Shown: piece after piece, positions 14,063 to 42,868 of the stretch
Position numbering within the stretch: the first letter of the stretch is position 1
Layout of the letters: the number at the start of each line of letters is the position of its first letter
DNA from: Bacteroidales bacterium
Lineage (GTDB): Bacteria > Bacteroidota > Bacteroidia > Bacteroidales > VadinHA17
NCBI GenBank assembly: GCA_021157415.1
Contig: JAGGWN010000019.1
Location: 1 to 51,400 of the forward strand
Length of the DNA: 51,400 nucleotides
Direction: 5' to 3'
The notes under the pieces: generated by a model
Told to the model about the DNA's origin: nothing
Seen by the model: the letters and a program-made list of their open reading frames with translations, nothing else
The model's database searches: none
Program-made: the position numbers and the translations under genes

Positions 14063-15625
14063 TTATTGTCCCCCATCTTTGGGTCCAAGTTTGATTTGCT
14101 TGAACATAATTTTTATTTCGGCAATAGCCAGGATAGTAAAGGTAAGGGTAAACAACCAGAAGGTGACCTGCACTGTGATGGCGCTGATATTTGAAACAGC
14201 TGTCACATTGGGCATCAGATCCTGGACCACCCACGGCTGCCGTCCCACTTCTGCCGTGATCCATCCAAGTTCGGTAGCCACATAAGCCAGGGGTGCCGTC
14301 CATACCAGTACCCACAGGAACCATTTTTTACCGGCAATCCGGTCTTTTACCCCCCAGATCAATGCCAACAATAATACCAGCAGGAAGAAAAAGCCCAGAA
14401 GCACCATCAGGTGAAATGAATAGAAAGTCATGACTATATTAGGCAAGAGTTTTGCCGGATTTTCTCCTTTATAATAACCGTATCCGAAATAGGCAAAATA
14501 ATCTTTTATCCATTGCGGATCTTCAAATTTGGCACGTAGCTCTTTGTACTTGCCCGGGTCGGTATCCCGCGCTTCTTTCATTTCCTTCAGCGTCATGATC
14601 GCTACGTAGCCCCTTTCTTCTTTTTCCGCAAGGGACAGGATGTTGTGTTCTTTATTCCCGTTGATAAGGTCTTTTATGCCGGGAACAAAAGTATTTGCAT
14701 CATGGCTGGACAGATAAGACAACATCCCGGGGACCTCTATCCTCACAGGAAAAGAATATTTCCCCGGATTGTTCTCATCCAGGCTTCCCGTAATTCCAAA
14801 AGCTATGAGGGGGGCATGGTCCTGTCCTTCGTACAAAGCCTCCATGGAGGCAAATTTCATCGGCTGGGTCTTAAATACCTGCTGCGCCGAACCATCCCCG
14901 GTGTAAATGGTCAGAAGAATGCCGATCAGTCCGAACACCGAGCCTACCACGATGCTGCGTTTGGCAAAAAGGATGTCTCTGTTTTTCAGCAAAAACCAGG
15001 CACTGATGGCCAGCACAACAAGCGAAGCCAGTACATAAGCCTGGCTGACGGTGTGCAGGAATTTGTTGATAGCCGTCGGCGAGAGGGCCACATCAAAGAA
15101 ATTAACCATTTCATTGCGGGCCGTATCGGGGTTGAAATGCATCCCCGTGGGATTCTGCATCCAGGCATTGGCAATCAGTATCCATAAGGCAGACAGGTTG
15201 GAACCGAGGGCTGTGAGCCAGGTAGATGCCAGGTGAAACTTCTTGCTCACCTTTTCCCACCCGAAGAACATCACCGCAATGAAGGTCGACTCCATGAAAA
15301 AAGCAAGAATACCTTCGATAGCCAACGGAGCCCCGAAAATATCCCCGACAAACCAGGAATATTTGGACCAGTTGGTCCCAAATTCAAATTCAAGAATGAT
15401 GCCCGTAGCCACACCTATGGCAAAGTTGATCCCAAAAATGGTCATCCAGAATTTTGTGATCTTTTTCCAGGCTTTATTCCCCGTTTTCACATAAATCGTT
15501 TCCATGATCGCCACAATGACTGACAATCCTAAGGTCAAAGGAACAAACAGCCAATGATACAGGGCTGTCAGCGCAAACTGACCCCTCGACCAGTCAACAA
15601 GAGAGATGTCAAAGTTTTGAAACAT
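14063..15625 (-). CDS. cydA: Cytochrome bd ubiquinol oxidase subunit I
   Basis: The 520-residue protein has the family start DWSRGQFALTALYHWLFVPL with His24, the equivalent of the E. coli haem b595 ligand His19. Glu104 and Glu112 correspond to the conserved Glu99 and Glu107, and His191 (FLHTVSQAY) to His186, the haem b558 ligand. The GWITAEVGRQPW motif near residue 460 is also conserved. A quinol-binding Q-loop segment lies between about residues 260 and 390. CydA holds the haems and the quinol site and gives high-affinity oxygen reduction, often under microaerobic conditions. The gene is 7 bases after DUF4492 and 1 base before cydB. Confidence 0.97.
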   Translation of the reverse strand: MFQNFDISLVDWSRGQFALTALYHWLFVPLTLGLSVIVAIMETIYVKTGNKAWKKITKFWMTIFGINFAIGVATGIILEFEFGTNWSKYSWFVGDIFGAPLAIEGILAFFMESTFIAVMFFGWEKVSKKFHLASTWLTALGSNLSALWILIANAWMQNPTGMHFNPDTARNEMVNFFDVALSPTAINKFLHTVSQAYVLASLVVLAISAWFLLKNRDILFAKRSIVVGSVFGLIGILLTIYTGDGSAQQVFKTQPMKFASMEALYEGQDHAPLIAFGITGSLDENNPGKYSFPVRIEVPGMLSYLSSHDANTFVPGIKDLINGNKEHNILSLAEKEERGYVAIMTLKEMKEARDTDPGKYKELRAKFEDPQWIKDYFAYFGYGYYKGENPAKLLPNIVMTFYSFHLMVLLGFFFLLVLLLALIWGVKDRIAGKKWFLWVLVWTAPLAYVATELGWITAEVGRQPWVVQDLMPNVTAVSNISAITVQVTFWLFTLTFTILAIAEIKIMFKQIKLGPKDGGQ

Positions 15626-33284: not shown

Positions 33285-33358
33285 GTGGATGTAGCTCAGT
33301 TGGTTAGAGCACTGGATTGTGGTTCCAGGGGTCGTGGGTTCGAGCCCCATCTTCCACC
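33285..33358 (+). tRNA. tRNA-His (anticodon GTG)
   Basis: The sequence folds into a 74-base tRNA: acceptor 33285-33291 with 33351-33357, D arm GCTC/GAGC, anticodon stem CTGGA/TCCAG with loop TTGTGGT (33317-33323) and T arm GTGGG/CCCAT with TTCGAGC loop. The anticodon GTG (33319-33321) reads histidine codons. A G at 33284 can serve as the encoded G-1 of tRNA-His, opposite discriminator C at 33358. CCA is not encoded. The sixth acceptor pair is T-T (33290 with 33352), a mismatch; all other stem pairs are formed, counting one G-T. Confidence 0.95.
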
Positions 33359-35714: not shown

Positions 35715-36995
35715 ATGCAAAAAAAACTGACTTTTCTTTTGCACATCCATCCCAAAAGGGTACCCCGGACATCCATACGGTTTACCTACACTTTCGGGCT
35801 GGGAGGAATCACGTTGCTGCTGATCCTTTTGCAGATCTTCACGGGGATCCTGTTGAAGTTTGTGTACATCCCTTCTCCGGCAAAAGCCTACGATTCTATC
35901 CTGTTTCTTCAGAACCAGATCCTTTTTGGCCAATATGTACGTAACATTCATCATCTTGACGGAGAGTTGCTGGTCGTTCTGGCTCTTCTTCACATGCTGC
36001 GTGTCTTTTTTACGGAAGCGTTTCATCCTCCCATACGCAGCGGCAATTGGATCCTTGGCCTCTGTATGTTCCTGCTTATTATGTTCTCTAATTTCACGGG
36101 CTATCTGATGCCCTGGGACCAGTTGTCCTACTGGGCCGTCACGGTGGTCACCAACATGTTTTCCTACATACCGCTTATCGGCCCTCATATCACTGTTTTC
36201 ATCCGCGGGGGCGCGGATGTCACCGGGAACACCCTGATGAATTTCTTCAACTTCCACACAGCTATTATCCCGCTTACGTTCATTATTTTAATGATTTTTC
36301 ATTTTTGGAAAGTCCGTAAAGCCGGGGGGGTAGCTCCTCCCCGCACCAGTCAGGATCACGAGAGAGGTCTTGTTCCTGTTATGCCCGACCTGATTGTTAA
36401 AGAAGTGGCGGTAGGACTGATAGTACTGGCTTTTATCTTCATGCTGGCGATCTTCCTGAATGCCCCTCTGCGCGAGCGTGCCAATCCCGCCTTCAGCCCG
36501 AACCCGGTCAAGGCTCCCTGGTATTTCATCGGAATCCAGGAAATGCTCATGCATTTTCATCCGTTTGTCGGCACCATACTGATTCCTCTTTTCCTTCTTG
36601 GGTTTTTATTTTACCTGCCATGGCTTCATTATCCACAAAACAATGCGGGCATCTGGTTTTCCTCCCTTAAGGGCCGGCACACGGCCATCTTCTCGGGTAT
36701 TGTAGCCTTTATCCTGACACCTGTCCTCATCGTGGCCGATGAATACCTGATCCATTTTAATCTCTGGTTTCCCTCACTCCCTTCTATCCTCTCAGAAGGG
36801 TTGTTTCCTGTCCTGCTATATGGTTTGCTCTTTTACCTGTACCTGTTTTATCTCCGCAGAAAGTACCGCCCCAATGTCAATGAAACCGTGCAGGCGGTGT
36901 TTGCTTTCTTTCTGGTAACCTACACCGTATTATCCCTGACAGGACTTTTTTTCAGAGGTCCCGGCATGATTCTCATGTGGCCCTGGCAGATTTGA
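35715..36995 (+). CDS. Cytochrome b of a bc1/b6f-type quinol-oxidising complex
   Basis: The protein of about 426 residues, starting KKLTFLLHIHPKRVP, is a fused-length cytochrome b with at least eight membrane helices. Haem ligands are His79 and His93 (IHHLDGELLVVLALLH) and His181 and His196 (FHTAIIPLTFIILMIFH). The second pair is 15 residues apart, the b6f-like spacing, against 14 in mitochondrial-type bc1. The Qo region reads KAPWYFIGIQEMLMH, with PWYF at the PEWY position. It oxidises menaquinol at the outer face of the inner membrane. It is followed after 18 bases by a Rieske gene and then an octaheme cytochrome, with no cytochrome c1 or f. The upstream extension to 35616 is rejected because it spans the promoter. 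Confidence 0.92.
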   Translation: MQKKLTFLLHIHPKRVPRTSIRFTYTFGLGGITLLLILLQIFTGILLKFVYIPSPAKAYDSILFLQNQILFGQYVRNIHHLDGELLVVLALLHMLRVFFTEAFHPPIRSGNWILGLCMFLLIMFSNFTGYLMPWDQLSYWAVTVVTNMFSYIPLIGPHITVFIRGGADVTGNTLMNFFNFHTAIIPLTFIILMIFHFWKVRKAGGVAPPRTSQDHERGLVPVMPDLIVKEVAVGLIVLAFIFMLAIFLNAPLRERANPAFSPNPVKAPWYFIGIQEMLMHFHPFVGTILIPLFLLGFLFYLPWLHYPQNNAGIWFSSLKGRHTAIFSGIVAFILTPVLIVADEYLIHFNLWFPSLPSILSEGLFPVLLYGLLFYLYLFYLRRKYRPNVNETVQAVFAFFLVTYTVLSLTGLFFRGPGMILMWPWQI

Positions 36996-37013
36996 TCTTA
37001 ACACCCGTTTCGT

Positions 37014-37565
37014 ATGTCAAAAAAGATGTCCCATATTAAACAAAATCCTCATCCTGAAAAGGATGAATATGATCTTAAAGAAACACCGGACAATTCCCGC
37101 CGCAGCTTTTTCAGAAAAATCTGGGGGTGGATAGCCCTGGCCGCAGGGGTTGAGCTGGCCGGTTTGAGCATTCCTTTCATCGGTTCGGGCAGAAAAAAAC
37201 AAACCAAAAAAGAAACCGGGAAATTTACCGCAATAGCCCAGGTGTCGGATATCCCGGCAGGATCTGTCCTCCCGTACCGGTCAGGACGACTTTATATCTG
37301 TCATCTCAAGGACGGAGGATTCCTCGCGGTATCCATCAAGTGCACTCATCTGGGATGCAGCGTGGAATGGGATGAAAAGAAAAAAGAATTTCTCTGCCCC
37401 TGCCATCATTCCATGTTTTCTCTAAACGGAGAAGTCGTAAATCCTCCGGCTACCCGGGCACTGAATATTTATCCCCTGAAAATCGAGGAAGGAGTCATCA
37501 AGGTTAACCTGGAGCATCCCATCCGGCGGAAACACTACAACAAATCACAGGAGACCTATGCCTGA
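37014..37565 (+). CDS. Rieske 2Fe-2S iron-sulphur protein
   Basis: The 183-residue protein has a short basic N-terminus with SRRSFFRK at residues 28-35, resembling a Tat signal, a membrane anchor at about 37-57 and a Rieske domain from about 70. The cluster ligands are Cys110 and His112 (CTHLGC) and Cys128 and His131 (CPCHHS), with Cys115 and Cys130 able to form the usual disulphide. It takes an electron from quinol at the cytochrome b Qo site and passes it to a periplasmic cytochrome. It starts 18 bases after the cytochrome b gene and its 3' end overlaps the octaheme gene by 8 bases, so the three are tightly coupled. Confidence 0.95.
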   Translation: MSKKMSHIKQNPHPEKDEYDLKETPDNSRRSFFRKIWGWIALAAGVELAGLSIPFIGSGRKKQTKKETGKFTAIAQVSDIPAGSVLPYRSGRLYICHLKDGGFLAVSIKCTHLGCSVEWDEKKKEFLCPCHHSMFSLNGEVVNPPATRALNIYPLKIEEGVIKVNLEHPIRRKHYNKSQETYA

Positions 37566-39915
37566 GAAAAAACAAACACAAGACTACTCCCTCTGGAAAA
37601 GAGCAGGATTCATTGCCACCCTGGTCTTCTTTATCTCTTTTCCCCTGTATCTGGTGCATTTTTATCTTACCGGAAACGGCTCTGTATCCGGTAACACAAA
37701 TGAGACAGCTCATTATGTGGGGGGGGACCAGTGCATCGAATGTCATCCCAATGAATATCACGACTGGCATGGTTCCGATCATGACCGTGCCATGGACTAT
37801 GCTACGGATAAGAGTGTGGAAGGGGACTTTAACAATGCGGTTTTTGTGGACATGAAAGGCGATACCAGCCGTTTTTTCAAAAGAGAAGGGAAGTTTTATG
37901 TACACATCAAAGGACCGGATGGAAAACCCGGCGATTTTCACATCACCCATACGTTTGGTGTCAGACCCCTGCAACAATATCTGGTCCCTTTTGATAGTGG
38001 AAGACTGCAATGTCTTCCCATAGCCTGGGATACCATCACTCATTCCTGGTTCAGCCTGCCGGATTCGATCTATAAGGATGAAAACCTTACACCGGATAAC
38101 TGGCTTTACTGGACCAATAACGGGCAGAACTGGAACGGCATGTGTGCCGACTGTCACAGTACCAACCTGAAAAAAGGATATGACCCTGCAAAACACACCT
38201 ACCATACTACCTGGACAGATATAAACGTCAACTGTGAGGCATGCCACGGGCCCGGTTCTGCACACCTCCAATGGGCCAATCTGCCCGAAATGGACCGTCC
38301 GCAAAACACCAACTACGGTCTCACGGTCAACACCGCCGACCTCGATCCTGTCGAAGAGGTCAGGCAGTGTGCCCGTTGTCATGCCCGGCGTTCGGTAATG
38401 GGTGATTTTACGCCGGATGATTTTCATAGGGATTTGCTGGATTACATGATCCCTCAATTACTTATCGCACCCCACTATTTCCCCGATGGACAAATCCTCG
38501 ATGAAGACTATGTTTACGGATCGTTTACACAAAGCTACATGTACCAGGAACATCTGCGCGTTCGCTGCAGTGACTGCCATAATGTACACAGCCTGAAAAC
38601 CATCCTGCCTATAGATGATAACCAGTTGTGTCTGCAATGTCACCGGTCTGATGTTTACGACACCTACCAGCATACTTATCATAAAAAAACAGGAGAGCCC
38701 GGAAAACCTCTGGTACTGGAACACGGGAAAAAGATGGTACAGGTAGGCGAAGGAGCCAAATGCGTCAACTGCCATATGCCAGGCAGGTATTATATGGGTG
38801 TGGATTTCCGCAGGGATCACAGCCTGCGCATACCCCGTCCCGATCTGTCCATGAAATATGGTACCCCTAACGCCTGTAATCAATGTCATACAGACAAAAC
38901 GCCTGCCTGGGCCGAATCATATATCCGCAAATGGTATGGGAAGAGCCGGCGGCATCATTATGGGGAAGTGCTGGCCCGCGGCAGAGAAAGTGATCCTGCA
39001 GCACAGGACAGTCTGATCCTGATCATCCGGGATATCCTTCATCCGGTTATCGTACGCGCTACGGCGGTCGCCTTATTACAAAACTACCCTAACCAGAAAA
39101 GCTTTAATGCCATCCAACAGGCTTTCAGTGATCCCGAATCCATGATCCGTGAAGCAGCAGTCCGCAGCCTTCCTATTCTTTCACAAGAACAATTCAAAGA
39201 AGCCCTTCTTCCCATGCTGACCGATCCGGTAAAGGCGGTGAGGATACAGGCTGCCTTCCGGCTCTCTTCCCTGCCCCGTCGTCAGATCAACGGAAAATAC
39301 CAGAAAGCTTTTGACCAGGCACTGAAAGAATACCAGAAAAGTATGCGCTATATGGGAGACTTTGCCTCCAGCCGGCACAACCTGGGCATGTTATACGCCA
39401 ACCTGGGACAAACAGCCAATGCCATAACCAATTACGAAGAAGCCATACGTATAGACAATCTCTTTTCCCCGGCCAAGATCAATCTTGCTTTGCTGTACAA
39501 CCAAACCGGACAAAATGACAAAGCCGAGAAAATGCTTCTGGATGTCATTCATCACGAACCCGATTTTGATCAGGGATACTATTATCTCGGACTGCTTATG
39601 GCCGAGAAAAAAAATTATAACAAAGCCCTGAGTTATCTCCTGGAAGCTGCCCGCCGCATGCCTGATTATGTCCGGATCAACTATAATATTGCATTGCTAT
39701 ATCAACAACTGGGGAAGAAAAACGAAGCTGAAAAGTACCTGCTAAAATGTCTGCGGGCCGAGCCGGACAATTTTGATTATCTCTATGCCGCCGCAACTTT
39801 CTACCTGCAATCGGGAGACCGCAACAAAGCCAGACACTTTGCATCCCTGTTGACAGAAAAATATCCGCAAAACCAGGCGGGGAAAAACATTCTGAACATC
39901 CTTAACGGCAAATAA
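37558..39915 (+). CDS. Octaheme cytochrome c with C-terminal HEAT-like and TPR repeats
   Basis: The 785-residue protein has one N-terminal membrane helix (about residues 15-37) that anchors it or acts as a signal. Eight CxxCH haem sites follow at Cys59, 196, 226, 271, 337, 358, 402 and 440, in the spacing of cytochrome c554/nitrite-reductase-like multihaem proteins. Residues about 480-575 are HEAT-like helices and about 590-775 are TPR repeats (SRHNLGMLYANLGQTANAIT and similar units). All haem sites should be periplasmic. As the only c-type cytochrome in the operon it is the natural electron acceptor of the Rieske protein, in place of cytochrome c1, while the repeats suggest docking of a partner. 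No terminal reductase gene lies in the operon. The start overlaps the Rieske gene by 8 bases. Confidence 0.92.
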   Translation: MPEKKQTQDYSLWKRAGFIATLVFFISFPLYLVHFYLTGNGSVSGNTNETAHYVGGDQCIECHPNEYHDWHGSDHDRAMDYATDKSVEGDFNNAVFVDMKGDTSRFFKREGKFYVHIKGPDGKPGDFHITHTFGVRPLQQYLVPFDSGRLQCLPIAWDTITHSWFSLPDSIYKDENLTPDNWLYWTNNGQNWNGMCADCHSTNLKKGYDPAKHTYHTTWTDINVNCEACHGPGSAHLQWANLPEMDRPQNTNYGLTVNTADLDPVEEVRQCARCHARRSVMGDFTPDDFHRDLLDYMIPQLLIAPHYFPDGQILDEDYVYGSFTQSYMYQEHLRVRCSDCHNVHSLKTILPIDDNQLCLQCHRSDVYDTYQHTYHKKTGEPGKPLVLEHGKKMVQVGEGAKCVNCHMPGRYYMGVDFRRDHSLRIPRPDLSMKYGTPNACNQCHTDKTPAWAESYIRKWYGKSRRHHYGEVLARGRESDPAAQDSLILIIRDILHPVIVRATAVALLQNYPNQKSFNAIQQAFSDPESMIREAAVRSLPILSQEQFKEALLPMLTDPVKAVRIQAAFRLSSLPRRQINGKYQKAFDQALKEYQKSMRYMGDFASSRHNLGMLYANLGQTANAITNYEEAIRIDNLFSPAKINLALLYNQTGQNDKAEKMLLDVIHHEPDFDQGYYYLGLLMAEKKNYNKALSYLLEAARRMPDYVRINYNIALLYQQLGKKNEAEKYLLKCLRAEPDNFDYLYAAATFYLQSGDRNKARHFASLLTEKYPQNQAGKNILNILNGK

Positions 39916-39945: not shown

Positions 39946-40971
39946 ATGGAAAAAACAGAAAGATCCACTATTGGCCTGGATTCTTTAGCCTATATCGTAA
40001 TCATCCTGGCCGGCATCAAAATTTCCGCCTCCATTACAACACCTTTTTTATTGTCCCTGTTTATCGTGATCATTTTCAAGCCTTTTTCCGATTCTCTGAT
40101 AAAAAGAGGGATCCCACGATGGATGGCTTTCTCCATAATTTCAGTCATCGTACTGCTTTTCGGATTCCTGTTGGTTACCATTATATCCATATCGGTTCAG
40201 AATTTTTCGGGAAACCTGTCTTTTTATGATGAAAAACTAAGCCTCTACCGCGATGAAATCATTGCTTTGGCACAAAGATACGGGGTGTCTGACAAATACC
40301 AGCTCACTTCGCTTCTGAATCCTGCCCGGATCATGAGTTTCGTTGCCGGAGCGCTGACCAATTTCAGTGATATTCTCTCCAACAGCGTCCTGATACTGCT
40401 GACCGTAATTTTTATTTTCATAGAAACCAACATCTTCCCCGAGAAAATAAAAGTCATCGCCAAAGATGAAAGTCTGAAGTATTTTCATGAGATAAACCAT
40501 CAGGTAAACAATTACATGATGATCAAAACGATCATATCCGCAGGGACGGGATTTATCATAGGTGCAGCACTGGCACTGATACGTCTGGATTTTGCAATTC
40601 TGTGGGGGCTTATCGCTTTCCTGCTGAATTATATTCCCAACATTGGCTCCCTGATCGCGGCCATACCACCCATTATCTTGGCACTCATCCAATTCGGGCT
40701 CCCCGGAGCTATCGGTGTCACAGGAATCTTCCTGATCGTTAATTTTGTGATAGGCAATTATGTCGAACCGAAAGTTATGGGAAAAGGACTGGGACTCTCT
40801 GTGCTGGTCGTCTTTCTCTCTTTGATATTCTGGGGATGGCTGCTCGGACCGGTAGGCATGTTACTCTCCGTGCCTATTACGCTTGTTTTTAAGATCATCA
40901 TGCAGGCACAACCGCAAAAACGGTGGATTGCCATCTTGCTGGGAGACGGATCGGAAATCCGCAAGTCCTGA
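39946..40971 (+). CDS. AI-2E (PerM/TqsA) family membrane transporter, first of a tandem pair
   Basis: The 341-residue protein has eight hydrophobic segments with the AI-2E layout: an N-terminal pair of helices, a soluble region at about 85-155, and the late motifs LLNYIPNIGSLIAAIPPIIL at about 224-243 and VEPKVMGKGLGLSVLVVFLS at about 271-290. The family includes autoinducer-2 exporters but also sodium/proton antiporters, so the name does not show the substrate. It starts 30 bases after the octaheme gene and might be read from that operon. A terminator follows at 41001. Its neighbour at 41124 is clearly homologous along its whole length. Confidence 0.88.
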   Translation: MEKTERSTIGLDSLAYIVIILAGIKISASITTPFLLSLFIVIIFKPFSDSLIKRGIPRWMAFSIISVIVLLFGFLLVTIISISVQNFSGNLSFYDEKLSLYRDEIIALAQRYGVSDKYQLTSLLNPARIMSFVAGALTNFSDILSNSVLILLTVIFIFIETNIFPEKIKVIAKDESLKYFHEINHQVNNYMMIKTIISAGTGFIIGAALALIRLDFAILWGLIAFLLNYIPNIGSLIAAIPPIILALIQFGLPGAIGVTGIFLIVNFVIGNYVEPKVMGKGLGLSVLVVFLSLIFWGWLLGPVGMLLSVPITLVFKIIMQAQPQKRWIAILLGDGSEIRKS

Positions 40972-41053: not shown

Positions 41054-41081
41054 TTGGGTTAACTTTATCCTGATATTTTTG
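41054..41081 (+). promoter_or_regulatory. Promoter of the second AI-2E gene
   Basis: TTG (41054-41056) is followed after 17 bases by TATTTTTG (41074-41081), matching TTG-N17-TAnnTTTG. The ATG at 41124 is 42 bases further on. The longer frame opening at TTG 41079 begins inside this box and is therefore rejected. Confidence 0.65.
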
Positions 41082-41123
41082 AAGATTTACACATGGCAAA
41101 ATAACCTTGAATCCGATAGCCCC

Positions 41124-42182
41124 ATGGAAACAATAAATAAACATAAAACGGCATCCGCCTTATGGATCCTGGCCTCATTGGTCATTATCCTGGCAGGGGC
41201 CAAAGCAGCATCCAACATTATCGTTCCTTTTCTGATGGCCCTGTTCATTGTCATTATTTTCAAACCTTTTGCCAACGCACTTCAGAAAAAAGGGGTTCCC
41301 GGGTGGCTGGCACTGACAATTATCCTGTTATTCATTCTAATTTTTATCGGTCTGCTGATTACGATGCTCACGGTATCGGTCCAGAACTTTTCTGCAAAAA
41401 TTCCTTTTTACAATGATAAGCTCATCGTTTACAGGGACCAGCTCATTCTGTTGCCTAAAAAATTCGGGATACAGATTGATCAGCAACAGCTGAACAATTT
41501 TTTTGACCCCGCCAAGATCATGAGTTTCGTGGGCATTGCCCTGAAGAGTTTCAGTGATATCCTCTCCAACGGTCTGCTGATCTTATTAACAATTGTCTTC
41601 ATCTTTATCGAATCCAATATATTCAATGCCAAACTCAAATTTATCGCCAGAGATGAAAAGAAATTAACGTATATCCAGGAGATAAACGAGCAATTAAATC
41701 ACTACATGCTCATCAAATCCATTACCTCCGCTTCCACAGGGATTATCCTCGGAGGAGCCCTGGCATTGGCAGGTGTTGACTATGCGCTCCTGTGGGGCGT
41801 TGTTGCCTTTATGCTCAATTACATCCCCAGTATCGGCTCACTGATTGCAGCCATCCCCCCCATCATCCTGACACTGGTACAGTTCGGGATACCGGAATCC
41901 ATTGGGGTTACCCTCCTGTATGTGACTGTGAACTTTTTGATCGGCAGTGTCATCGAACCGCGGATCATGGGAAAAGGACTGGGTTTGTCTGTGCTGATCG
42001 TCTTCCTCTCCCTGATTTTTTGGGGATGGATCCTTGGTCCTGTGGGGATGTTCCTTTCGATACCCATTACCCTGGTTATCAAGATTATCTTGCATTCCCA
42101 ACCCGATACACGCTGGATATCTGTCCTCCTCGGCAACGGCCTCGAAGTACGGTCGCTAAAAAAACAACAACATTTAAATTGA
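41124..42182 (+). CDS. AI-2E (PerM/TqsA) family membrane transporter, second of a tandem pair
   Basis: The protein of about 352 residues repeats the layout of its neighbour: ILAGAKAASNIIVPFLMALF near the start, MLNYIPSIGSLIAAIPPIIL late in the chain and a VIEPRIMGKGLGLSVLIVFL end. Conservation runs through the membrane parts and the soluble loop, so this is a tandem duplication with later divergence. The gene has its own TTG-N17-TAnnTTTG promoter and is separated from the first by a terminator, so the copies are transcribed independently. The C-terminus ends in a short basic, glutamine-rich tail (KKQQHLN) absent from the first copy. Confidence 0.88.
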   Translation: METINKHKTASALWILASLVIILAGAKAASNIIVPFLMALFIVIIFKPFANALQKKGVPGWLALTIILLFILIFIGLLITMLTVSVQNFSAKIPFYNDKLIVYRDQLILLPKKFGIQIDQQQLNNFFDPAKIMSFVGIALKSFSDILSNGLLILLTIVFIFIESNIFNAKLKFIARDEKKLTYIQEINEQLNHYMLIKSITSASTGIILGGALALAGVDYALLWGVVAFMLNYIPSIGSLIAAIPPIILTLVQFGIPESIGVTLLYVTVNFLIGSVIEPRIMGKGLGLSVLIVFLSLIFWGWILGPVGMFLSIPITLVIKIILHSQPDTRWISVLLGNGLEVRSLKKQQHLN

Positions 42183-42229: not shown

Positions 42230-42868
42230 ATGATCATAAAATCTTATCAGAAATCCCGGCATCCATTATTACTGTTTTGTGTCATCCTGATCCTTGTTGT
42301 AACAAGCAGTTGCAAAAACAAAAAAGAAGAGAAGCAAACCAAAGTGAAAAACACCCCGGCGACCGTTTTGGAAAACAACGCAGATATTGGCGCCATCTTT
42401 CTGGACGCCTCCATGAACGGAGACCTTAACAAAGTAAAACAGATTGTCCGGGGAGGCTTGGACGTGAACACCTCCGGTGATCAGAGACGCACCGCCCTGA
42501 TGCTGGCATCCTACAACGGACATACCGATATCGTCACCTACCTGCTGAAAAAGGGGGCTCAGGTGAATGCCCTCGACGATATGGGGCGATCCGCACTGAT
42601 TTACGCTGCTTCCGGCCCCTTCCCCCAAACCGTGAAAGTATTGCTGGATCATAAGGCTGATCCGGATATCATTGCCAAAGGTGACGGGTGGACCGCCCTG
42701 ATGTATGCCGCTGCCGAAGGCCAACTGGCAGTTGTAAAGATACTGCTGGATCATGGCGCCAACCCATCTGTCAGGGAGAAAGACGGAGACGATGCCGAAT
42801 CTTTCGCCCGGAAAAACGGACATACCGATGTGGCGGAATATTTACATAATTTTGTGCCTGAGAAATAA
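42230..42868 (+). CDS. Ankyrin repeat lipoprotein
   Basis: The 212-residue protein has a lipoprotein signal: a basic start, a hydrophobic core (HPLLLFCVILILVV) and the lipobox TSSC with Cys28. A charged linker (about 29-48) leads to four or five ankyrin repeats at about residues 50-205, for example GDQRRTALMLASYNGHTDIV and GDGWTALMYAAAEGQLAVVK. Ankyrin repeats bind protein partners; such periplasmic proteins are sometimes linked to oxidative stress or catalase function, but nothing here shows the partner. It is convergent with the YdcF gene. Confidence 0.92.
   Translation: MIIKSYQKSRHPLLLFCVILILVVTSSCKNKKEEKQTKVKNTPATVLENNADIGAIFLDASMNGDLNKVKQIVRGGLDVNTSGDQRRTALMLASYNGHTDIVTYLLKKGAQVNALDDMGRSALIYAASGPFPQTVKVLLDHKADPDIIAKGDGWTALMYAAAEGQLAVVKILLDHGANPSVREKDGDDAESFARKNGHTDVAEYLHNFVPEK

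Follow-up and report, generated by a model that had tools for sequence, protein, structure and literature searches.

An octahaem HEAT-TPR cytochrome c as the probable output subunit of a Rieske/cytochrome b complex in a Bacteroidales bacterium

The window, i.e., the whole stretch of 51,400 nucleotides that was analysed (contig JAGGWN010000019.1, positions 1 to 51,400, assembly GCA_021157415.1, Bacteroidales bacterium), contains adjoining genes for a cytochrome b, a Rieske protein and an octahaem cytochrome c with HEAT and TPR repeats. This locus raises the question of which protein takes the electrons from a Rieske/cytochrome b pair when neither cytochrome c1 nor cytochrome f is encoded. The three genes probably specify a complex of the bc type, in which the octahaem protein replaces c1 or f, the usual single-haem subunit, as the output. 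Their positions, and that of a motif discussed below, are as follows; all Pfam scores quoted for the three proteins exceeded the cut-off.

35715..36995, plus strand: cytochrome b, 426 amino acids (Pfam Cytochrome_B, 148 bits)
36513..36527, plus strand: motif APWYF of the quinol-oxidising (Qo) site, residues 267-271 of cytochrome b, a variant of PEWY
37014..37565, plus strand: Rieske protein, 183 amino acids (Pfam Rieske, 43.8 bits)
37558..39915, plus strand: octahaem HEAT-TPR cytochrome c, 785 amino acids (Pfam, predicted structure)

An earlier note on this DNA had described a tight order of the three genes, and its open reading frames and coordinates were found as given there: the spacing between the cytochrome b and Rieske genes is 18 nt, and the Rieske gene overlaps the octahaem gene by 8 nt (ATGCCTGA). 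The start of cytochrome b at 35715 is backed by relatives which start at the identical residue, and by GGAG upstream. The same genes recur in the same order in other phyla, at identities down to about 41–43%, and chance is therefore not the reason for the arrangement. At least 18 loci, spread over three to four bacterial phyla, have conserved the three genes as a unit; carriers are Bacteroidota, Ignavibacteriota, metagenome-assembled genomes labelled Chlorobiota, Desulfosarcina, represented by complete genomes, and Aureibacter tunicatorum, a cultured species in which the triple resides on plasmid pAT1 under routine annotation.

Helices B and D of the cytochrome b carry two bis-His pairs for haem, as required in a bc-type complex. 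The pairs are H79/H93 and H181/H196; their spacings of 14 and 15, pointed out before, were invariant in an alignment of 14 sequences, and so was the Qo motif. Its context reads KAPWYF, and the identical variant occurs in other cytochromes b of the phylum. Nine long membrane helices were predicted in one chain, comprising a b6-like four-helix part, a part like subunit IV, and two more. Also invariant in this alignment was Gly28, at the place of the Cys which binds haem cn in b6 (Cys35), and thus a covalent haem cn is not indicated. The nearest profile was that of ExtP with 251.9 bits, which is below the curated cut-off (NF040969) of 290 bits; ExtQ scored 47.2 bits.

All cluster ligands of the Rieske protein, CTHLGC...CPCHH, were conserved in 16 of 16 aligned sequences, in agreement with the earlier note; the sole change inside the first motif was Thr to Pro (CPHLGC) at locus L084. 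The N-terminus consists of RR and a helix, and the second motif reads CPCHHSMF. Near the cluster the Ser is retained, and the potential-raising Tyr is replaced by Phe. Mutants without that Tyr show a potential lower by about 65 mV, yet a natural Rieske protein of Kuenenia with Phe is nonetheless of high potential (PMC12954380); the potential is thus not readable from the sequence. The C-terminal tail, ...KSQETYA (window about 37530–37562), recurs as KSQ.TYA in linked relatives of several phyla and is possibly a docking tail.

Cytochrome c1 (PF02167) and cytochrome f (PF01333) were each detected in 0 of 12 operon-carrying genomes searched, while the positive controls, Caulobacter for c1 and Synechococcus for f, were recovered; the subunits characteristic of a bc1 and of a b6f complex are thus both missing there. 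The lack of both proteins, noticed before in the window, extends in this way to whole genomes, and a c1 or f homologue elsewhere, which the note had named as a possible refutation, does not accompany this cytochrome b. Monohaem cytochrome c of family PF00034 gave no match in the source genome (G000; PF13442 was not searched). The only COX1-family match in that genome was a partial gene of 341 amino acids (locus C18; L119, 6256-7281) missing the first 130 profile positions, which was read as resembling the C-terminal portion of a nitric oxide reductase of the NorB type. Cytochrome c oxidase as a partner was consequently dropped, only this NorB-like partial gene having been found. Cytochrome bd is present in the same genome, as noted before, with cydA in the window at 14081-15592 on the minus strand.

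Could the octahaem gene be merely a neighbour, and the cytochrome b-Rieske pair use another acceptor? Relatives of the octahaem protein were collected from 73 GTDB loci, of which 17 were linked, i.e., had cytochrome b and/or Rieske of the operon type upstream, and 56 were unlinked; Aureibacter brought the linked loci to 18. Linkage of L028 was counted on Rieske alone, as the contig ends there, and about 9 of the 56 unlinked loci start no more than about 1.3 kb from a contig end, where linkage is unreadable. In a sample of 396 genomes of the phylum the octahaem protein was found in 31, and 29 of these were without the linkage; these figures for loci and genomes favour a mere neighbour. The operon-type cytochrome b subfamily (E below 1e-100) occurred in 2 of the 396 genomes, both times directly upstream of the octahaem gene. 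The neighbourhood search proposed in the earlier note, with a gene that is usually unlinked as the refuting outcome, thus gave a divided result: the wider family is indeed usually unlinked, but not one clade of 35 sequences (support 100/99), which contains all 18 linked octahaem proteins besides 17 unlinked members. On the tree the linkage label changed 3 times, compared with a mean of 15.1 for shuffled labels. One gain and two losses of linkage are the most economical reading; separate gains are a possible alternative. The identity distances of cytochrome b, Rieske and octahaem proteins were correlated (r 0.959/0.949/0.915, 13 triples). This co-evolution, the 8-nt overlap, the recurrence across phyla with different flanks, an exchange of anchor and lipobox that follows linkage (see below), and the absence of c1, f and PF00034 cytochromes in the genomes mentioned make a mere neighbour very improbable.

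Since the family is usually unlinked, the octahaem protein did not arise as a bc subunit; by origin it would appear to be a free-standing lipoprotein or secreted family, later recruited to the bc complex. The HEAT and TPR repeats are likewise not a bc-specific adaptation, because unlinked relatives carry them too. The parts of the protein are:

37585..37668, plus strand: N-terminal membrane anchor, residues 10-37, without lipobox
37720..38967, plus strand: octahaem domain of periplasmic type, residues 55-470, with CxxCH at residues 59, 196, 226, 271, 337, 358, 402 and 440
37837..38055, plus strand: beta-sheet insert between haems 1 and 2, residues 94-166, located as in OcwA and MccA (predicted structure; PMC6703420)
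38143..38157, plus strand: haem 2 motif CADCH, a candidate active site; its counterpart in the alignment, haem 2 of OcwA, has an open site
38959..39267, plus strand: HEAT-repeat region, residues about 468-570 (Pfam, predicted structure)
39292..39906, plus strand: TPR superhelix, residues 579-783 (Pfam, predicted structure, fold search)

Pfam matches were Cytochrome_C554 (52.8 bits), HEAT_2 (41 bits) and TPR_8 (64 bits), and the AlphaFold2 (AF2) model had a predicted local distance difference test score (pLDDT) of 88 and a predicted template modelling score (pTM) of 0.85. Across 49 sequences the eight CxxCH motifs were invariant, which bears out the description as an octahaem cytochrome with HEAT and TPR repeats, and so were six non-motif His (75, 236, 344, 372, 375, 421); the core contains also invariant Trp, Gln and Met. 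A paralogue of the protein within the genome was considered and dropped, as the matches were only to TPR.

The N-termini, which were read by eye and not with a signal-peptide predictor, differed with linkage. In all 18 linked octahaem proteins the sequence starts short and basic and leads into a single hydrophobic helix (typically WKxxGFIATLV...SFPLYL), with neither a lipobox nor any Cys ahead of the first haem; among the clade's 17 unlinked members, 16 had a lipobox Cys. The remaining one, G140, retains the anchor though its genome has no PF00033 cytochrome b, and its sister G295, likewise without cytochrome b, carries a lipobox. To judge from these sequences, the pattern fits an inner-membrane subunit beside cytochrome b, and a switch to lipoprotein export once cytochrome b was lost.

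The conserved operon, the co-evolution, the anchor tied to linkage and the absence of c1 and f support the octahaem protein as a subunit, and in this respect the earlier proposal of a variant bc complex with the octahaem protein as acceptor stands. Several points weigh against it: the structure model of cytochrome b is of moderate confidence only (pLDDT 73), at L030 the octahaem gene lies about 4.5 kb from the cytochrome b-Rieske pair with opposed genes in between, and G140 indicates that an anchored octahaem protein can work without cytochrome b.

If the octahaem protein is the output, it may be a relay or an enzyme; both are finer readings of the explanation preferred here. The best 50 PDB fold matches of the full octahaem model were TPR superhelices and uninformative on the haem part. 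The profile search of PDB sequences was done with the haem domain alone, and yielded OcwA (E 2.9e-25), cytochrome c554 (2e-7) and MccA (2.5e-5, one stretch covered). Ranked after OcwA and before the latter two were the multihaem cytochrome cf (6qvm) and 6r2q, whose chain is labelled cystathionine beta-synthase, though the stretches matched are rich in CxxCH. In OcwA six haems are bis-His ligated, one is His-Met (haem 9) and two are open (2 and 5); its haems 1-4 and 6-9 can be superposed on those of MccA, and a beta-sheet insert is common to these two only within the NrfA family (PMC6703420). The haems of our protein align to OcwA haems 1, 2, 3 and 6-9; haem 4 is outside the aligned stretches and presumably corresponds to OcwA haem 4. 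Wherever aligned, the six invariant His are also His in OcwA. With six invariant non-motif His for eight haems, no invariant distal His is left for two of them; judged by position, haem 2 would be open, and haem 8 would be His-Met ligated like its equivalent, OcwA haem 9. The assignment of ligands is not unique, since H372 aligns with a His pair above haem 5 of OcwA.

Besides the profile match, the beta insert after haem 1 (strands 94-166) is a trait of the OcwA/MccA branch. The C-terminal three-helix bundle of that branch is not present, and HEAT repeats followed by TPR stand in its place; the kinship is thus limited to the haem core. The sulfite reductase MccA has an atypical binding motif at haem 2 and copper ligands. 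These hallmarks were not found in our protein, where haem 2 has an ordinary CADCH and no Cys is invariant besides those of CxxCH.

The earlier note missed this OcwA/MccA-like core with its probable open haem site, which suggests that Rieske may feed electrons directly into a reductase, the protein then being more than a relay. As the terminal reductase of the complex it could reduce a soluble high-potential oxidant (nitrite, hydroxylamine, nitric oxide or similar) at haem 2, a possibility that we regard as tentative. OcwA, which the core matches, reduces nitrite and hydroxylamine (PMC6703420) and has its open haems 2 and 5; the build is that of MccA, which has eight haems, the beta insert and its active site at haem 2; the number of invariant His, the free-standing existence of the family, which suits an enzyme, and an operon without any other acceptor gene point in the same direction. 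Against these stand the open coordination, which is deduced from an alignment, the fact that OcwA also serves electron transfer at the surface and turns nitrite over slowly, the lack of recognised nitrite or nitrate genes beside linked loci, and locus C93 of the same genome, which already has an HAO-like octahaem protein with its own Rieske/cytochrome b.

Alternatively, the protein would only pass electrons on to other periplasmic or outer-membrane multihaem cytochromes, for extracellular electron transfer or other reductases; we give this nearly an even chance. Possible recipients are encoded in the source genome (3.3 Mb), which contains two further Rieske/cytochrome b loci and therewith three complexes with three different multihaem outputs. 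At C93 (L116: 5618-8679) Rieske/cytochrome b occurs with the HAO-like octahaem protein and, upstream, a probable outer-membrane protein of 444 amino acids; at C48 (L117: 3899-7212) cytochrome b is fused to an ExtM-like 11-haem cytochrome c. C36 encodes an octahaem protein of the tetrathionate-reductase family, and CxxCH codons are in excess in this genome (330, versus 173 for a control pattern). In the phylum, 18 of 18 other cytochrome b loci that were read had a multihaem cytochrome c nearby; such a cytochrome instead of c1 or f is the rule there, and together with published precedents (see below) this removes the novelty which the replacement had seemed to have. The complexes of Geobacter and Methanoperedens were also interpreted as relays (PMC2825233, PMC5877670, PMC4683180). 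A mere relay is less easily reconciled with the tight conservation of the core (eight haems, six His, invariant Trp, Gln and Met) in free-standing relatives, which suggests more than a wire, and a gene for a porin-cytochrome conduit is not present beside the operon.

We propose the following course of electrons. Menaquinol would be oxidised at the Qo site of cytochrome b; one electron would recycle through the b haems, and the other would pass from the mobile Rieske head directly to the octahaem protein, which stands in for c1 or f. Drawn from a free-standing family related to OcwA and MccA, this protein would have moved to the inner membrane on becoming a subunit. The electrons would leave it for an acceptor in the periplasm or outer membrane, which might be a second multihaem cytochrome or else a soluble oxidant, reduced at the open haem of the octahaem protein itself. 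The HEAT-TPR tail would most likely hold a partner protein, a role older than the link to cytochrome b. The potential of sulfite is about -116 mV. Despite the likeness to MccA it is an unlikely acceptor, because a Q-cycle is worthwhile only if the acceptor's potential lies well above that of menaquinone.

Reverse running of the system, with the octahaem protein oxidising a periplasmic donor and electrons going uphill to quinone, would be possible in so far as bc complexes are reversible in principle, and OcwA is able to oxidise hydroxylamine as well (PMC6703420); genes of an oxidation pathway were not recognised nearby, and we consider this direction about as improbable as an accidental neighbourhood of the genes. 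A more far-reaching idea, which is rather doubtful at present, combines the preferred scheme with catalysis: a self-contained, energy-conserving terminal reductase, with a Q-cycle core, a Rieske protein feeding an OcwA/MccA-like octahaem active site, and a partner-binding TPR arm. Its origin would lie in a free-standing lipoprotein or secreted reductase that was recruited to the inner membrane, an anchor taking the place of the export signal, and this step would have been reversed where cytochrome b-Rieske was lost.

The operon adds a distinct type of third subunit to Rieske/cytochrome b complexes. It illustrates an exchange of the output module within one phylum (octahaem-TPR, HAO-like octahaem, 11-haem c and fused multihaem c), with three of these in one genome. 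G140 and G295, where cytochrome b is absent and the anchor was kept in one and a lipobox is found in the other, amount to a natural experiment on the gain or loss of an acceptor by a bc complex, and with Aureibacter tunicatorum a cultured carrier is at hand for testing the idea. Should the octahaem protein be catalytic, substrate reduction would be coupled to the Q-cycle.

Downstream of the operon the following genes were found:

39946..40971, plus strand: AI-2E-type transporter, 30 nt after the octahaem gene; synteny in near relatives only
41079..42182, plus strand: second AI-2E-type transporter
42230..42868, plus strand: ankyrin-repeat lipoprotein, in 8 of the 17 linked loci

The first transporter is possibly in one transcription unit with the octahaem gene. 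No terminator clearly dividing the octahaem gene from the two transporter genes emerged from a scan, and promoter matches were at chance level. The ankyrin-repeat lipoprotein gene, immediately 3' of the octahaem gene in L019 and L020, is a candidate accessory gene. The sole Rfam match in the window was a tRNA gene at 33285-33358 (RF00005, 64 bits).

Arylsulfatase genes often adjoin loci of the octahaem-TPR family (L148 6057-11274; L084 3273-10301; L026, L030, L034, L044, L145-L150), at times together with a HAD hydrolase; arylsulfatase genes were found beside 12 of the 73 GTDB loci and all 6 plasmid loci inspected, and for 0 of 22 control cytochrome b loci. Counting was done by tblastn, since a regular expression missed the CTAGR type and was rejected; sulfatase-rich genomes are a confounder. 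On pSymA of S. meliloti the order is arylsulfatase-HAD-octahaem. Matches to the octahaem-TPR protein were present in 158 plasmid records, 142 of them over at least 80% of the protein length, mainly from megaplasmids of Rhizobium and Sinorhizobium; the usual annotation was TPR or cytochrome c3 family protein.

Rieske/cytochrome b pairs with multihaem cytochromes c are known from Geobacter (PMC2825233, PMC5877670), Kuenenia (PMC12954380), Methanoperedens (PMC4683180) and Caldithrix (PMC5317091), and multihaem acceptors in early bc complexes were treated by Dibrova 2013, as quoted in PMC5317091. The present operon belongs to this type, as its multihaem cytochrome is encoded with Rieske/cytochrome b and c1 and f are lacking; an octahaem-HEAT-TPR partner was not found described in the open-access literature searched. 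The ext genes of Geobacter (ExtO Rieske, ExtP cytochrome b, ExtQ) are similar in that ExtP is nearest to our cytochrome b, Rieske and multihaem c adjoin, and c1 and f are absent (PMC2825233, PMC5877670). ExtP and ExtQ are separate there, however, whereas they are fused here with two more helices, and the partners ExtKL, M, N and S belong to other families with 12, 10, 5 and 4 haems and without described HEAT-TPR (PMC5877670). Kuenenia (Kuste4569-4574, Kustd1480-1485) shares a b6f-like core, hexa- or octahaem c replacing cytochrome f, and a Rieske protein with Ser and, in Kustd1480, Phe for Tyr; its separate b6 and subunit IV, haem cn and NAD(P) oxidoreductase subunits have no counterpart here (PMC12954380). 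In Methanoperedens (PMC4683180) and Caldithrix (PMC5317091) Rieske/cytochrome b also adjoin multihaem c and direct electron transfer was proposed, but the multihaem families are others; the HAO-like type of Caldithrix is found at C93, not in this operon, and a c1/f-type cytochrome was also reported in the Methanoperedens cluster (PMC4683180).

With OcwA of Thermincola potens (PDB 6i5b, PMC6703420) and MccA (PDB 4rkm) the octahaem protein has in common the haem core, the distal-His pattern and the beta insert, and with MccA the set of eight haems, equivalent to OcwA haems 1-4 and 6-9 (haem 4 presumably). It differs from both by HEAT-TPR in place of the three-helix bundle, by its membrane anchor and by its linkage to cytochrome b-Rieske, and from MccA by the ordinary CxxCH at haem 2. 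Compared with b6f and bc1 complexes, the core of cytochrome b and Rieske is the same, with the 14/15 His spacing as in b6, but cytochrome f or c1 is missing, Gly stands at the position of the haem-cn Cys, PWY replaces PEWY, and nine helices are contained in one chain.

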